Source of the DNA: an uncultured Candidatus Saccharibacteria bacterium
Lineage (GTDB): Bacteria > Patescibacteriota > Saccharimonadia > Saccharimonadales > CAIOMD01
Direction of reading: 5' to 3'
DNA: 36,168 nucleotides
NCBI GenBank assembly: GCA_903859365.1
Contig: CAIOMD010000005.1
Location: 1-36,168 of the forward strand
Shown: one piece after another, positions 2,248 to 14,072 of the stretch
Layout: each line of letters opens with the position of its first letter
How positions within the stretch are numbered: position 1 is the first letter of the stretch
The notes under the pieces: generated by a model
Database searches by the model: none
The model's input: the letters and a program-made list of their open reading frames with translations, nothing else
Told to the model about the DNA's origin: nothing
Position numbers and translations under genes: made by a program

Positions 2248-5200
2248 ATGGATTTCGAAACTAATTACAGAAAGCTTTCTCCTGAACAGAAAAGGGCAGT
2301 CGATACGATAGATGGACCCGTATTGGTTATTGCAGGACCCGGTACCGGAAAGACACAACTACTAGCGCTTCGAGCGGCAAATATTCTTAAGAAAACTGAT
2401 ACTGCACCACAAAATATACTTTGCCTAACCTATACGGAAGTTGGGGCACGCAATATGCGATCACGACTTGCTCAATTTATTGATAAAGCAGCATACGATA
2501 TCCAAATCAGTACCTATCATGGTTTTGGAAGTGAAATTATTCGAAACTATTCAGAATACTTCACCGAATTTGATGATGAGCAACCGGTAGACAAAATTGG
2601 TCAAAATGTCATCATGCATGAAATATATAAAGAACTTCCAGCGACAAATATTTTATGGAAATCACGAGTGTACCTAAAAGATGCCCTGAGTTTTATTAGC
2701 GAGTCAAAAAGGGCAAGACTGCTACCAGATGATCTACGAAAAATTGCCAACGATAACGACGCCTTTATTCAAAATACAAAAGAAAAAGTAGCAGAAATTT
2801 TATCGAGTGTTCAAAAGATGACCCCATCAGTAATCCCAAATTTTTCTCTGCTCGACGATTATCTTACCAAGATTTCCACTAACTCTACCACCTACAAATC
2901 AATAGCCCCAATAAGTCATTTGGCTACCGTTGATTTAAATGATGCAATTCCTCAAGCACTCGAAACCGGCAAGACCCCAGCGCTCACTGCCTGGAAAAAT
3001 AAATGGCTAACCAAAGACAGTGAAGACAAGTGGATCTTTGCTGGTAAAAGAGAGAATCGGAAAATAAGGGCAGGGGCTGATATCTACGACATGTATTTAA
3101 CGAAGCTTTCTGAAAAAAAACTATTTGATTTTGATGACATGATTTTAAGGGCAATTCGCGCAATTAAAGAACATGACGAATTACGGTTTACCCTTCAAGA
3201 AAAATATCAATACATCATGCTCGATGAGTTTCAAGATACAAACCTTTCACAACTCGAACTAATAGAACTATTGACTAATAATCCAGTTAATGAAGGTCGG
3301 CCAGATATTCTTGCTGTAGGAGATGACGATCAGGCAATCTATAGTTTTCAGGGCGCAAATCTTGGCAACATGCTTTCATTTCACGCCATGTATCGAGACG
3401 TGACAACCATTACCCTAAAAGATAACTGGCGCTCGCACGAAGATATTTTAAGCATTTCGGAGAATATTTCCTCACAAATTGAAGAGAGATTACATAAGGG
3501 TCTCGGCTTCTCAGACAAAAAGCTTCAAGCAATGAATAAAAATATTCCTAAAAAATCGAGAGTCGAACGACATAATTTTAAGAGTGACATTGCTCAATTC
3601 TCCTGGGTCGCACAGCAGATAAAAAATGAGATAAAGGGCGGACTTAAACCCAGTGAAATTGCTATCATTGCTCCAAAACATAAATACCTAGAACCGCTTG
3701 TTCCATATCTCAAATCGTTAAACATTCCGGTACGGTATGATAAGCGTGAAAATGTATTTGACGATAGTCACATTCAGTCACTCATCACAATGGTGCAGTT
3801 AGTAATTGCACTTAGAGATAATAAGACCGCGGAAGCAAATTCACTGTGGCCTGCAGTGCTAAGTGCACAAGAATGGAAGATACCTACAAGTAGGATTTGG
3901 AAATTATCTTGGGCGGCAAATAAAAATTATTTCGAGAATGGCGAGAACAACTGGCAAGCTCTTATGCTGGATGATGAGCAATTTAAATTAATAGCACTGT
4001 TTTTTGCTCAGCTAGCGAGCGCATCTCGCACTCTAACACTCGAATTAATACTAGATTATTTAACTGGAGTCACCCCACTAGTACTTAATGAAATAGAAAC
4101 ACCTGAATATACATCTCCTTATTTTGAATACTATTTTGGTAAAGAAAGTAGGGAGGAGAATCCGGTAGGATTCATGCAGCTACTTTCAAATTTAACGGTA
4201 CTACGTCAACATCTTAGAAGTTACAAGAAAACAGAAGCTTCACCTTTAACGATTGATGACTTTATCGAATTTGTTAAAGCATATGCTGATGCAGAAGAAA
4301 AACTACTAAATACCAATCCATATCATTCGAGCGACGATGCAGTGCAGCTATTAACTGCATACGGCGCGAAAGGATTAGAATTTGGCGCTGTATTCACTCT
4401 AGCAACCGTTGATGAAGTGTGGGGAATGAAAGCTCGCTCAAACAGTAATAAAATATCATTACCTATTAATTTAAAAATAATACGTCAAGCGGGGCTTTCC
4501 AAAGACGAAAGAAAGCGGCTATTTTTTGTGGCACTCACTAGGGCGAAACACATGCTCATTATGACTAGTTATGACCAAGATTTTTCAGGTAAAGTAACAA
4601 CACCCCTAGAGTTTCTCGCAGAATCTCAACTCGATGATTCGCAATCAAGTCCTTATTTACCAAGTAGCCAAAAACAAGTAATGCAATCCGATTCTGAAGC
4701 ACTTACTATTGATCAAATTGAAACCTATTGGCATGCGAAACATCTAAAAGCTCTGAGCGACGAAACATTAAATGAGCTCATAAAACCACAACTTGAAACG
4801 TTTCAATTGAGTGCAACGCATCTTAATTCATTTACCGATCTAGAGTATGGAGGACCAGAATCTTTCTATTTAAATACAATACTTCGCTTCCCGAAATCAC
4901 CTAGTGTCAGTGGGCAATACGGAAGCGCAATGCATGAAACACTAGAATCGCTCCATAATATATTGCGAAAAGAAGGTGAAATTCCTGATCTTGATAGAAC
5001 AATTGAAATTTTTGAGAAAAAATTAAAATCGCAAAGATTACTCCCGGGTGATTTTAGTCAACAATTTTCACGCGGCAAAAGAGCACTTGAACATTTCTTA
5101 CCTTGGTGGTGGCATAACTTCAATCCATCGAATGAAGCCGAAATCAATCTAAAGAACGAGGGATCATTTGTCGGAGAAGCTCACCTAAGCGGTAAGCTTG

Positions 5201-5598
5201 ATCAATTAGTAATCAATCACGACGACCACGAAATAGGGGTGGTAGATTACAAAACTGGTACCCCAATTGAAAGATGGGATACATCTTTGAAGGTTCATAA
5301 ATACAAACAACAACTACTTTTTTATAAACTACTTCTAGAATCCTCTCACTCATATGAAAAATTTACTGTCACCAGTGGTAGATTGGTGTTTGTAGAACCT
5401 GATGATGATGATCAAATGCATGAGCTTACGCTGCAGTATGATGATAAAGATATTATTCGTACAAAAAATCTCATCCAAGCAGTATGGAATTGCATCATGA
5501 AACTCGATATACCATCAACCGAACATTTCGAGAAAGATGCTAAGGGAACTGTAGCATTTGAAAATTGGCTCATAGAGAACTACTTACCGAAAGAGTAG
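2248..5598 (+). CDS. UvrD/PcrA-type superfamily 1 helicase fused to a RecB/PD-(D/E)XK nuclease
   Basis: An 1116-aa ATP-dependent DNA helicase-nuclease. The helicase part shows the Walker A motif GPGTGKT at about residue 30, motif Ia region LCLTYTEVGARNM, Walker B DEFQDT near 326, motif III GDDDQAIYSFQGA, motif IV/V DNWRSH and TAYGAKGLEF, and motif VI VALTRAKH near 762. The last 300 residues form a RecB-family nuclease: GSAMHETLE near 890, GKLDQLV and VVDYKTG near 1000, giving the H, D and D-x-K residues. The family acts in double-strand break end processing, like AddA, AddB and AdnB. The cysteines that hold an iron-sulfur cluster in AddB and Cas4 nucleases are absent here. A TATAGT hexamer ends 8 bases before the ATG. 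Confidence 0.93.
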   Translation: MDFETNYRKLSPEQKRAVDTIDGPVLVIAGPGTGKTQLLALRAANILKKTDTAPQNILCLTYTEVGARNMRSRLAQFIDKAAYDIQISTYHGFGSEIIRNYSEYFTEFDDEQPVDKIGQNVIMHEIYKELPATNILWKSRVYLKDALSFISESKRARLLPDDLRKIANDNDAFIQNTKEKVAEILSSVQKMTPSVIPNFSLLDDYLTKISTNSTTYKSIAPISHLATVDLNDAIPQALETGKTPALTAWKNKWLTKDSEDKWIFAGKRENRKIRAGADIYDMYLTKLSEKKLFDFDDMILRAIRAIKEHDELRFTLQEKYQYIMLDEFQDTNLSQLELIELLTNNPVNEGRPDILAVGDDDQAIYSFQGANLGNMLSFHAMYRDVTTITLKDNWRSHEDILSISENISSQIEERLHKGLGFSDKKLQAMNKNIPKKSRVERHNFKSDIAQFSWVAQQIKNEIKGGLKPSEIAIIAPKHKYLEPLVPYLKSLNIPVRYDKRENVFDDSHIQSLITMVQLVIALRDNKTAEANSLWPAVLSAQEWKIPTSRIWKLSWAANKNYFENGENNWQALMLDDEQFKLIALFFAQLASASRTLTLELILDYLTGVTPLVLNEIETPEYTSPYFEYYFGKESREENPVGFMQLLSNLTVLRQHLRSYKKTEASPLTIDDFIEFVKAYADAEEKLLNTNPYHSSDDAVQLLTAYGAKGLEFGAVFTLATVDEVWGMKARSNSNKISLPINLKIIRQAGLSKDERKRLFFVALTRAKHMLIMTSYDQDFSGKVTTPLEFLAESQLDDSQSSPYLPSSQKQVMQSDSEALTIDQIETYWHAKHLKALSDETLNELIKPQLETFQLSATHLNSFTDLEYGGPESFYLNTILRFPKSPSVSGQYGSAMHETLESLHNILRKEGEIPDLDRTIEIFEKKLKSQRLLPGDFSQQFSRGKRALEHFLPWWWHNFNPSNEAEINLKNEGSFVGEAHLSGKLDQLVINHDDHEIGVVDYKTGTPIERWDTSLKVHKYKQQLLFYKLLLESSHSYEKFTVTSGRLVFVEPDDDDQMHELTLQYDDKDIIRTKNLIQAVWNCIMKLDIPSTEHFEKDAKGTVAFENWLIENYLPKE

Positions 5599-5601
5599 AC
5601 A

Positions 5602-5630
5602 TTGCTTTTTTATAATACTTATGGTATTAT
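5602..5630 (+). promoter_or_regulatory. Promoter of the 112-aa membrane protein gene
   Basis: TTGCTT, a 17-base spacer, then TATTAT, followed by ATATTTGTAGT. It closely matches the promoter at 6128-6156 in hexamers, spacer length and the start-site region, and lies directly after the helicase stop codon. Confidence 0.75.
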
Positions 5631-5669
5631 ATATTTGTAGTGTACCCGTTCGAGTGAAAGGAACTCCTC

Positions 5670-6008
5670 TTGTTATCCGCTACAATTTACAATCCATCGT
5701 TTCAAGTTTTCTCGCTTTATGAAAGCTGTGCTATCCTGCTGACGTCTATGCTTAGCTTAGTCCTGGTGATCAAGAGACACTACATTGCTTCTGTATTTAT
5801 TGCGTTCTTTGGGATGCTTTACTTCATGATCGAAATGGTAATAGGTATTGTGACATTTGTTGTTCATAGAAACCTTACCCTCCTGACTACTCCAAGCAAT
5901 GCTTACGCAATCAACATGTCACTTTCATTGCTCCTTTTGATATCTACCGGAATCATTTACATCAAACACTTTCTGCAACTGCATTTAGATGACATTGATC
6001 GAACATGA
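5670..6008 (+). CDS. Small three-helix membrane protein A
   Basis: A 112-aa protein of unknown function. It starts at TTG, chosen because AAAGGAACTCC supplies a ribosome site about 8 bases upstream and no in-frame ATG suits. Three hydrophobic segments lie at about residues 13-35, 40-66 and 80-103. A basic turn (IKRHY) separates the first two, and a polar acidic tail (LHLDDIDRT) closes the protein. The topology (helix, basic turn, helix, about 20-residue loop, helix) is the same as in the next gene, although sequence identity is low. Both genes share promoter type and 3' RNA hairpins, so they look like a pair of related cassettes. It ends with TGA. Confidence 0.75.
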   Translation: MLSATIYNPSFQVFSLYESCAILLTSMLSLVLVIKRHYIASVFIAFFGMLYFMIEMVIGIVTFVVHRNLTLLTTPSNAYAINMSLSLLLLISTGIIYIKHFLQLHLDDIDRT

Positions 6009-6042
6009 ATCCCAAGGTTATCAAAACTTGACACATGGCCAA

Positions 6043-6087
6043 AGCCCGCGTGGCACTTGAGATTTCATACTCGAGTGCCCGCGGGCT
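6043..6087 (+). ncRNA. Bulged GC-rich RNA hairpin downstream of membrane protein A
   Basis: AGCCCGCG-T-GGCACTTGAG pairs with CTCGAGTGCC-CGCGGGCT across an 8-base loop. It forms 18 pairs, with one unpaired T after the first 8 pairs and one G-T wobble. The sequence CGTGGC...GCCCG around the bulge recurs in the hairpin at 6593-6650. It lies 34 bases after the stop codon and 5 bases before a separate terminator, so termination alone does not explain it. It may be a 3' UTR element or a small RNA; the function is unknown. Confidence 0.6.
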
Positions 6088-6092
6088 CATCA

Positions 6093-6114
6093 CCTCCTAA
6101 TAGGAGGCTTTTTT
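6093..6114 (+). terminator. Rho-independent terminator
   Basis: CCTCC-TAATA-GGAGG followed by CTTTTTT. It ends the transcript from the promoter at 5602-5630. The stem itself buries an AGGAGG sequence. Confidence 0.85.
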
Positions 6115-6127
6115 ATATATAAAATAC

Positions 6128-6156
6128 TTGCATTTTTAGCATAAACGTGTTATTAT
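6128..6156 (+). promoter_or_regulatory. Promoter of the 129-aa membrane protein gene
   Basis: TTGCAT, a 17-base spacer, then TATTAT, followed by ATTTTTGTAGT. It is nearly the same as the promoter at 5602-5630. The predicted start is near 6163, giving a leader of about 30 bases with a strong Shine-Dalgarno sequence. Confidence 0.8.
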
Positions 6157-6195
6157 ATTTTTGTAGTATTCTTCTAGGCCTTTAAGGAGGCAATC

Positions 6196-6585
6196 ATGTC
6201 AGTAGCTACACTTCACAACTCGGCATCCGCGACAGGGTTCATGAACACTTGGGTGATCGTAAGCTTGCTTTTTGCAGTAAGCGTCTCATTCCTCGCGTTC
6301 ATCTGGCAGCGCCGTGTTATTCAGGCGCTCGTTTCGGCTTCGATTTTCATGTTCCTCGTGAACGTAGCAATTGGCGGTGTCGCCAACTGGGACGTCGCAA
6401 AGCACGGAAATCATGGCTGGAGCTCGCTGCCTGGATGGGTATTTAATGCCCCAATCCTCGCGGGATTATTCCTTCTGAGTTCAGCAACTACCTTTGCTCT
6501 TTTGGAGCACTGGGGATTGCAAATCTGGCGTCGTCACGACAACCTGGACAAACTCAAGAAGGATGATCTTAAGAAGATCAGCTGA
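6196..6585 (+). CDS. Small three-helix membrane protein B
   Basis: A 129-aa protein of unknown function. AAGGAGG lies about 6 bases before the ATG, the best ribosome site in the window. Hydrophobic segments lie at about residues 17-38, 43-64 and 84-104. A basic WQRR turn separates the first two, and a His/Trp/Gly-rich loop (AKHGNHGWSSLPGW) precedes the third. The tail is charged (WRRHDNLDKLKKDDLKK). Codons are visibly richer in G and C than those of its neighbours and favour C in the third position. This fits very high expression or a different origin. Topology, promoter and downstream RNA hairpin match the preceding membrane protein gene. The product is probably abundant in the membrane. Confidence 0.85.
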   Translation: MSVATLHNSASATGFMNTWVIVSLLFAVSVSFLAFIWQRRVIQALVSASIFMFLVNVAIGGVANWDVAKHGNHGWSSLPGWVFNAPILAGLFLLSSATTFALLEHWGLQIWRRHDNLDKLKKDDLKKIS

Positions 6586-6592
6586 GTTGACT

Positions 6593-6650
6593 CCCTCGTG
6601 GCTTAGTGTTGGGCGGATCGCAAGGTCTGCCCAACACAAAAGCCCGAGGG
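6593..6650 (+). ncRNA. Long RNA hairpin with GCAA tetraloop downstream of membrane protein B
   Basis: CCCTCG-T-GGCTT pairs with AAGCC-CGAGGG as an outer stem that bulges one T. A small A-rich internal loop leads to a 14-pair inner stem, GTGTTGGGCGGATC with GGTCTGCCCAACAC, capped by GCAA, a GNRA tetraloop. Compared with the hairpin at 6043-6087, the outer stem changes G-C to T-A at the fourth pair, which keeps the pairing. It starts only 7 bases after the stop codon, and a separate terminator follows. The function is unknown. Confidence 0.6.
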
Positions 6651-6666
6651 ATTTTCAATTGAATTA

Positions 6667-6692
6667 AAAAAGCCCTCCGAATGAGGGCTTTT
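6667..6692. terminator. Bidirectional rho-independent terminator
   Basis: AAAAGCCCTC-CGAAT-GAGGGCTTTT is symmetric, with T-runs on both strands. It serves membrane protein B from the left and the aquaporin gene from the right. Confidence 0.9.
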
Positions 6693-6710
6693 CTTTAAAG
6701 CTTTAACTTC

Positions 6711-7427
6711 TTATTTTCGAGAAGTCTTCTTTTTTGCAGGAGCTGCTTTTTTCTTTGCAGGAGCTGCTTTTACTGCAGGAGCTTTCGCTGTTGCTGAAGC
6801 CATGCGAGTGAGTGGACTCGTTGAAGGATCAAGAACATATACGTACACTAATGCACCTACACCAAAACCAAGTACTGGGCCGAGGAAATAGTTCCAGTCA
6901 AAAGATCGGACTCCAAGTGCTACAGCTGGGTTGATAAGCCCATTTGAACCTAAGCCTGCTACAAGTATACCTAGGAATAACGCAGCACCAATAGTAAGTG
7001 ATGCCTTCATTCCACCAGCTTTTTGTACTACAACAGCTACGAATCCAAGGCTAAATACTAGCGCACCAATGAATTCTGCGAGGAATACTTGCATGTGGAA
7101 TGGAGTAGTCGTATTTGTAAGATTATGACCTACAAAATATTCATACAGTCTCATTGCACCATATGCTGCAACAGCTTGCGCTGCTAGATAACCGATTGCT
7201 CGGAATACTGTTAATTTACGAATCGCAAACAAACCAAGCGTTACAGCTGGATTAAAATTTGCACCTGATAATTTACCGAAAGCACCGGTAAATGTTGCAA
7301 CAGCAACACCTGCACCAATTGCAGTAAAGAACGGCAATTGATACCTTGATACATTTAGCACTACTAAGACAAGTACAAATGTACCAACTGCCTCAGCCAA
7401 CAGCGCTGCTACTTGACGCTGATTCAT
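6711..7427 (-). CDS. Aquaporin/MIP-family channel with basic C-terminal tail
   Basis: A 238-aa channel for water or small neutral solutes. The start chosen is the internal ATG at 7427, because GGAGGG lies 8 bases upstream; the longer ORF start at 7481 has no such site. Six membrane segments form two MIP halves, each beginning A-E-x-x-G (AEAVGTFVLV and AEFIGALVFS). Half-loops carry NFNPAVTLG and GLINPAVALG. The second NPA box of typical aquaporins reads NPAR; here the filter Arg is replaced by Val. The C-terminal 30 residues are Ala/Pro/Lys repeats (AAPAKKKAAPAKKKTSRK), encoded by short direct repeats and resembling histone H1 tails. The gene shares its terminator with membrane protein B. Confidence 0.92.
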   Translation of the reverse strand: MNQRQVAALLAEAVGTFVLVLVVLNVSRYQLPFFTAIGAGVAVATFTGAFGKLSGANFNPAVTLGLFAIRKLTVFRAIGYLAAQAVAAYGAMRLYEYFVGHNLTNTTTPFHMQVFLAEFIGALVFSLGFVAVVVQKAGGMKASLTIGAALFLGILVAGLGSNGLINPAVALGVRSFDWNYFLGPVLGFGVGALVYVYVLDPSTSPLTRMASATAKAPAVKAAPAKKKAAPAKKKTSRK

Positions 7428-7586
7428 ATTAGGAACCCTCCTTAAGTTAATCTTATGTTTTAACGATAAGAGTAAACACATAAAAAATCAATAGCATATT
7501 TTAACAAACAGATATAAATGGTGGGTAATATCATTAAAAAAATAGTCACAGGAAAACTAAATAATGCTGGCATATTATACATGTAG

Positions 7587-13350: not shown

Positions 13351-14072
13351 AGAAACCTATTGCCATTTTTGACATTGATGGCACATTCTTCAGATGGCAA
13401 CTATTCCACGAACTAGTTTTTCAGCTCAAAAATATGGGCTGTTTCAATGAAAAAATATCAAAAAAACTTGATGAAACTTTTTTAAATTGGCAGGCACTAA
13501 AAGCAACGTGGTCAGAATATGAAAATCAGGTGGTTGCAGCCATCGAAGACTCGATAACATCGATTAATCCAAAACAAGTGGAAGAAGCTGCACAGAAAAT
13601 AATAGATAAATCTGGTCATGAAGTCTACGCCTTCACAGCACAACTAGCCCAAAAATTAAAAGATGAGGGTTATTTCCTCCTGGCAATTACTGGATCGCAA
13701 CAAGAAGTTGCTGAACTTTTTGCAAAAAAGCATGGATTCGATGACTGCATTGGTCTTATACATGAAAGAAAAGAAGATTTCTATACAGGTAAATATGAGC
13801 GATTTATTGTAGACAATAAATTGGCACTAGCTAAAGACTATATAGAAAAACATAATCTGTCTTTAGAGAGAAGTTATGCAATAGGCGACAGTGCTTCAGA
13901 TATAGATGTATTGCATCTTGTTACTCATCCCATAGCTTTTAATCCTAGTAAAGAACTACTCGATGAAGCTCAGAAAAATGGATGGCCGATTGTTATTGAA
14001 AGAAAGAACATAATGTACCGCCTAGAAACGAGTCAAAATGGATACAAATTGGCAGAAACAAGAATACTCTAA
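13344..14072 (+). CDS. HAD-superfamily phosphatase (HAD-IB, SerB-like)
   Basis: A 242-aa HAD hydrolase. Motif I is FDIDGTFF, with nucleophile Asp near residue 10 and acid Asp near 12. Motif II is LAITGSQQEV near 120, and motif III/IV is AIGDSASDIDVL near 182. A helical cap lies between motif I and II, as in phosphoserine-phosphatase-like HAD-IB enzymes. The tail AFNPSKELLDEAQKNGWPIV is typical of the subfamily. The substrate cannot be read. It starts at GTG inside the end of the MTH1-like gene and ends inside the next gene, with a 35-base overlap, so translation is coupled on both sides. Confidence 0.9.
   Translation: MVKKPIAIFDIDGTFFRWQLFHELVFQLKNMGCFNEKISKKLDETFLNWQALKATWSEYENQVVAAIEDSITSINPKQVEEAAQKIIDKSGHEVYAFTAQLAQKLKDEGYFLLAITGSQQEVAELFAKKHGFDDCIGLIHERKEDFYTGKYERFIVDNKLALAKDYIEKHNLSLERSYAIGDSASDIDVLHLVTHPIAFNPSKELLDEAQKNGWPIVIERKNIMYRLETSQNGYKLAETRIL

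Follow-up and report, generated by a model that had tools for sequence, protein, structure and literature searches.

Two adjacent small membrane-protein genes with conserved, bulged 3' hairpins in one genus of Saccharibacteria

What are two small genes of matching build doing side by side, and why does each end in a strong hairpin in addition to a terminator? The question is raised by two adjacent plus-strand transcription units (5602-6693) in the window, by which we mean the whole 36,168-nucleotide stretch of DNA analyzed here. Each unit, as read directly, consists of a promoter, a ribosome site, a gene for a three-helix protein (P1 or P2), a 3' hairpin (H1 or H2) and a terminator. This doubled layout had been described in an earlier note on the same DNA, and every part was found in its place (Table 1). 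The 16S gene of the genome contains an exact match to what we take to be the TM7-580F primer site, as fits Saccharibacteria.

Two matched units at a variable junction

The -35 box of each unit matches TTGACA at just three positions, and neither promoter was listed by a consensus scan. We nevertheless call both sites promoters because they are kept, hexamers and spacing alike, in the sister genome, and GTAGT follows the -10 box in all four promoters of the two species. Promoters of this type are not exclusive to the units, and we rejected the promoter as their signature because similar sites are found at other genes. The terminator of unit 2 is probably bidirectional, serving the convergent aquaporin gene as well. 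That of unit 1 begins with ACCTCCT (6092-6098), which is complementary to the AGGAGG (6185-6190) of the unit 2 ribosome site, probably by coincidence.

Table 1. Features of the two units and of the genes on either side (positions in the window)
Feature	Positions	Strand	Evidence
Left neighbor, UvrD-type helicase with PD-(D/E)XK nuclease domain	2248..5598	+	Next to aquaporin gene in many of the order's genomes
Unit 1 promoter: TTGCTT (5602-5607), 17 nt, TATTAT (5625-5630), then probable start region ATATTTGTAGT	5602..5641	+	Read directly; hexamers and 17-nt spacing kept in sister genome
Unit 1 ribosome site, AAAGGA	5657..5662	+	Read directly; kept in sister genome
P1, 112-aa three-helix membrane protein, TTG start, KRH turn, predicted N-out/C-in	5670..6008	+	88% identical ortholog in sister genome; dN/dS about 0.13
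H1, 18-bp 3'-UTR hairpin, bulged T at 6051	6043..6087	+	Folding z-score -7.95 (computed with terminator); 3 pairs altered on both sides in sister genome; bulge kept
Unit 1 intrinsic terminator	6093..6115	+	Kept in sister genome
Unit 2 promoter: TTGCAT (6128-6133), 17 nt, TATTAT (6151-6156), then probable start region ATTTTTGTAGT	6128..6167	+	Read directly; hexamers and 17-nt spacing kept in sister genome
Unit 2 ribosome site, AAGGAGG	6184..6190	+	Read directly; kept in sister genome
P2, 129-aa three-helix membrane protein, ATG start, QRR turn, basic C-terminal tail, predicted N-out/C-in	6196..6585	+	74% identical ortholog in sister genome; dN/dS about 0.16
H2, 26-bp 3'-UTR hairpin, bulged T at 6599 and small asymmetric internal loop	6592..6651	+	Folding z-score -8.58 (computed with terminator); refolds in sister genome
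Unit 2 terminator	about 6668..6693	+	Read directly, and fold
Right neighbor, aquaporin-family (MIP) protein, convergent	6711..7481	-	Profile match and order-wide adjacency

Many genomes of the order have the flanking helicase and aquaporin genes side by side, as a rule with fewer than 300 bp between them. Only a short, empty gap separates the two in two relatives (G002 and G005); a small ORF lies there in G003 and a 666-aa ORF in G004. The two units occupy the place in the present genome and in the only further genome of the genus that was sampled (contig CAIRQE010000031.1, here the sister genome). The simplest account is that both units were inserted at this junction in the ancestor of the genus, and we infer insertion rather than loss elsewhere. 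The junction ORF of G004 (L087, 1987-3987, minus strand) has a hydrophobic, signal-like N terminus and is absent from that place in the other genomes. The aquaporin-family protein of the window ends in a lysine/alanine-rich tail, KAPAVKAAPAKKKAAPAKKKTSRK, and a similar tail is present in G004.

Far from lying in unrelated places without a hairpin, the outcome that the earlier note had named as speaking against its proposal, the units of the sister genome have the same order and the same position, and both bulged hairpins are present, along with conserved leaders, promoters, proteins and terminators. Outside the genus, the searches found nothing. A profile of P1 had no relative in 393 genomes of the order, and a profile of P2 found only the sister genome in a collection of one genome per species (85,462 species); single-sequence searches of 61 relatives with the proteins agreed. 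Phage, plasmid and viral collections yielded no match (the viral scan was run with P2 only). We rejected wider homologs after these searches of order-level genomes, GTDB and viral contigs, phages and plasmids. A covariance model of H1 alone matched just the present genome and the sister genome among 149 genomes. We concluded that the units are limited to one genus, in two genomes. In place of the undescribed wider family that had been suggested for them, we see small membrane-protein genes restricted to one lineage, with hairpins in their 3' UTRs; as matters stand, they are a peculiarity of a single genus and do not form a widespread system.

Two selected proteins of atypical composition

P1 and P2 each have three hydrophobic segments, with the basic turn lying between helices 1 and 2, and the distribution of charges suggests that both are oriented N-out, C-in. 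Both proteins are under purifying selection (Table 1), and the start codon of P1 is TTG here and GTG in the sister genome. AF2 models of the two show three helices at low confidence (pLDDT about 61), and a fold search with these low-confidence models gave no PDB match. Neither protein matched Pfam, PHROG, NCBIfam or PADLOC above cut-off. Homology between P1 and P2 could not be demonstrated: hhalign gave an E value of 0.057, and the pairwise score was reached by 59 of 1,000 window shuffles. Their common topology and their pairing make it a reasonable guess that they are subunits of one membrane complex. A NuoK-like subunit (NuoK/ND4L family; Oxidored_q2, PF00420) came into question through a similar arginine-containing turn, the three helices, and a weak match of the sister-genome P2 (E 0.052). 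It was rejected: the best score was 13.7 bits against a curated cut-off of 26.1, hhalign scores lay within those of shuffles, and no member of the family was found in the genome.

The earlier note had also supposed high expression. Both genes are rich in C-ending codons, like EF-Tu and an L7/L12-like ribosomal protein, but in codon adaptation to the ribosomal set they come low, at ranks 545 and 586 of 602, and on this ground we rejected high expression as a deduction from codon usage. P2 favors GAG, CAG and GTC/GTG, codons that highly expressed genes avoid, and its GC3 is the third highest of 601 ORFs. Strong expression of the units is doubtful with a codon usage so unlike that of the ribosomal set, and the composition looks more like that of foreign or specially constrained genes than like an adaptation to high expression. 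Other GC-rich loci exist in the genome. A two-gene block with atypical codon usage (L022, contig C4, 13066-15160) has a 27-bp hairpin upstream and, between its genes, a 14-bp GC-rich hairpin (14034-14068); apart from it and one in the rRNA spacer, a perfect-stem scan showed no further intergenic hairpin as strong. A very GC-rich minus-strand ORF (L019, 15203-15949) has the highest GC3 of the 601 ORFs (0.79), which may point to a recent foreign origin or to a frame called in error.

The two species are markedly more alike (about 72-91% identity) over the stretch reaching from promoter 1 across the aquaporin gene than at the preceding helicase end (56-76%). P1, P2 and the aquaporin gene show low synonymous divergence; in other neighbors it is saturated or higher. 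These three genes (5600-7550, aligned with L006) make up a block of higher identity than most neighbors, a pattern that could reflect selection on synonymous sites or later exchange between the species.

H1 and H2 as outlier stems with a conserved bulge

Both hairpins sit shortly past the stop codon, ahead of the separate terminator. The description of each as a stem with one bulged T is exact for H1; H2 has its asymmetric internal loop besides the bulge. A long-stem scan of 641 kb (89% of the genome) counted 16 G-C pairs in H2, 13 in H1 and 10 in the next-best stems, so that H1 and H2 are the two strongest GC-rich stems in that sequence. Two outlier stems lying 0.5 kb apart, each just past a stop codon, are not a coincidence of composition. 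The same 641 kb was also scanned for GGC/GCC stems that carry a one-base bulge on the 5' side together with a paired lower stem. Of the 19 sites found, only H1 and H2 have at least five G-C pairs in the lower stem. Around the bulge, the two share the lower-stem pattern CCCNNG-bulge-GGC over GCC-CNNGGG, and they differ in the loop and the apical stem. Only 7 of 20,000 stems simulated from the base pairs of H2 were as H1-like around the bulge as H2 is, in a comparison whose window was picked after the similarity had been seen. Rfam 15 gave no match at gathering score.

In the sister genome, both hairpins refold with the bulge kept, as U in H1 and C in H2 (z-score of that H2, -10.08), so that a one-base bulge is present in all four hairpins. 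In both species the hairpins fold much more stably than shuffled sequences do. Within that genome, the lower stems of the two hairpins agree at 7 of 10 positions, less than they do here. Compared with it, H1 has, besides the pairs in Table 1, two pairs altered on one side and two broken. In H2, one pair is altered on both sides, another on a single side, and a third is broken; the H2 pairs were counted on a hand-placed structural alignment that leans towards structure. MAFFT misaligned the stems in both the four-hairpin and the H2 alignments. Covariation here rests on two sequences, with a weak shuffle control (60/500, for H1). Folding and sliding controls give good support to conservation of the hairpin structure, and covariation statistics give less; with structure kept and base changes on both sides of pairs, the conservation extends beyond GC content. 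The bulge may have been inherited by accident from a common origin, may keep RNase III from cutting what would otherwise be a long perfect duplex, or may serve as a protein-binding site.

Readings of the hairpins and comparison with known systems

At a probability of roughly 0.55, we read the locus as two autonomous, genus-restricted membrane-protein genes, each with a 3' hairpin that stabilizes its mRNA. Transcription of each gene would run between a sigma-70-type promoter and a terminator of its own, and the product would be a small inner-membrane protein with three helices, N-out, C-in. The terminator stem would be trimmed or attacked first; the GC-rich hairpin would then halt 3'-to-5' exonucleases such as PNPase, giving the mRNA a longer life. 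The pair would have entered the convergent helicase/aquaporin junction in the ancestor of the genus. By analogy, we favor protection of the mRNA 3' end because the position of the hairpins fits, because PNPase (over profile cut-off) and RNase III are both encoded in the genome and because 3' stem-loops stabilize mRNA in other bacteria (PMC4423207; PMC13001229). Counting against it, an ordinary terminator alone can protect an mRNA, so that a second stem needs a reason, and a plain exonuclease block has no need of a common bulge and lower stem. Of the protein/RNA system proposed in the earlier note, the joint conservation of the parts is supported; that they form one system, rather than mRNAs with stabilized 3' ends, is an inference.

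H1 and H2 might instead be docking sites at which one RNA-binding protein or RNase reads the common bulged stem and co-regulates both mRNAs, as would suit the rarity of equal similarity in the simulations, the lack of another GC-rich occurrence in the 641 kb and the retention of the bulge in four hairpins. We consider this unlikely, given the looser agreement of the lower stems in the sister genome, the C in place of T in its H2 and the H1 model, for which H2 is the next plus-strand match in the window and the sister contig at a nonsignificant E of 0.24; the resemblance would also be accounted for if the two 3' ends had a common ancestor. Still less probable is the elaboration in which an unknown RNA-binding protein reads the bulged stem and thereby governs how much is made of each of two subunits in a new membrane complex specific to Saccharibacteria. 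It is similarly doubtful that each hairpin is a second, upstream terminator insulating the neighbors by tandem termination. The placement ahead of a terminator would fit, as would the convergent aquaporin gene that follows unit 2, but H1 lacks a U-tract (CAUCACC follows) and H2 has only UUUUC; a terminator scan listed neither hairpin, although it also missed the unit 2 terminator, a stem followed by a short T-run. There is a slim chance that hairpin and terminator are released together from the 3' UTR as a small RNA with other mRNAs as its targets: a stable hairpin followed by an intrinsic terminator resembles the 3' end of such RNAs, but there is no Rfam match above threshold, and between the divergent loops and apical stems of H1 and H2 no stretch resembles a common conserved seed.

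Other alternatives concern the genes themselves. That the block is horizontally acquired, phage moron-type cargo, a promoter-gene-terminator cassette from a source of higher GC, is possible, if tentative, and is compatible with mRNA stabilization, which concerns function. It would account for the GC3 of P2, for a codon choice unlike that of highly expressed genes and for a junction that holds different cargo in relatives; against it, the phage, plasmid and viral collections gave no match, and the composition is the same in both species, with most flanking genes synonymously saturated, so that the arrival was not recent. Class I holins have three helices, an N-out/C-in orientation and a charged tail, features that hydropathy and charge also predict for P1 and P2. 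We nevertheless regard holin-like or toxin-like proteins as highly improbable, with no match above cut-off in the four family collections and neither a lysin nor an antisense promoter seen nearby.

Saccharibacteria genomes are very small, so that two membrane proteins as well conserved as these, with transcript ends that have been carefully kept, would be expected to be important for the cell, possibly where it touches its host. The locus also offers an example of structure-conserved 3'-end hairpins in a lineage where RNA decay has been little studied.

Among known systems, type I toxin-antitoxin pairs receive no support: P1 and P2 are larger than the usual toxins, and the opposite strand has no promoter-like site in a scan that overlooks the promoters of the plus strand as well. 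The gene cassettes of integrons, with their attC hairpins, likewise combine a gene with an imperfect hairpin and occur in tandem, but the units have their own promoters and no RYYYAAC/GTTRRRY boxes at the hairpin bases, which read AGCCCGCG and TCCCTCG; GTTGGGC/GCCCAAC is present inside H2, in inverted order relative to attC. With no R boxes at the bases and no match at gathering score, attC and the Rfam families were rejected. Moron-type cassettes are autonomously expressed from their own promoter to their own terminator, are inserted between conserved genes and have atypical composition. The units resemble them in each of these last respects, but they lie at a chromosomal junction and no phage match was found. 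Compared with 3' stabilizing hairpins (the positive retroregulator of cry mRNA, and the 3'-end stem-loops of selective RNA processing and stabilization), the present hairpins differ in standing apart from the terminator, in their conserved one-base bulge and in that stabilization is here predicted only; they resemble them in forming a strong, stable stem-loop between the stop codon and the mRNA 3' end, in a genome that encodes the 3'-to-5' exonuclease PNPase.
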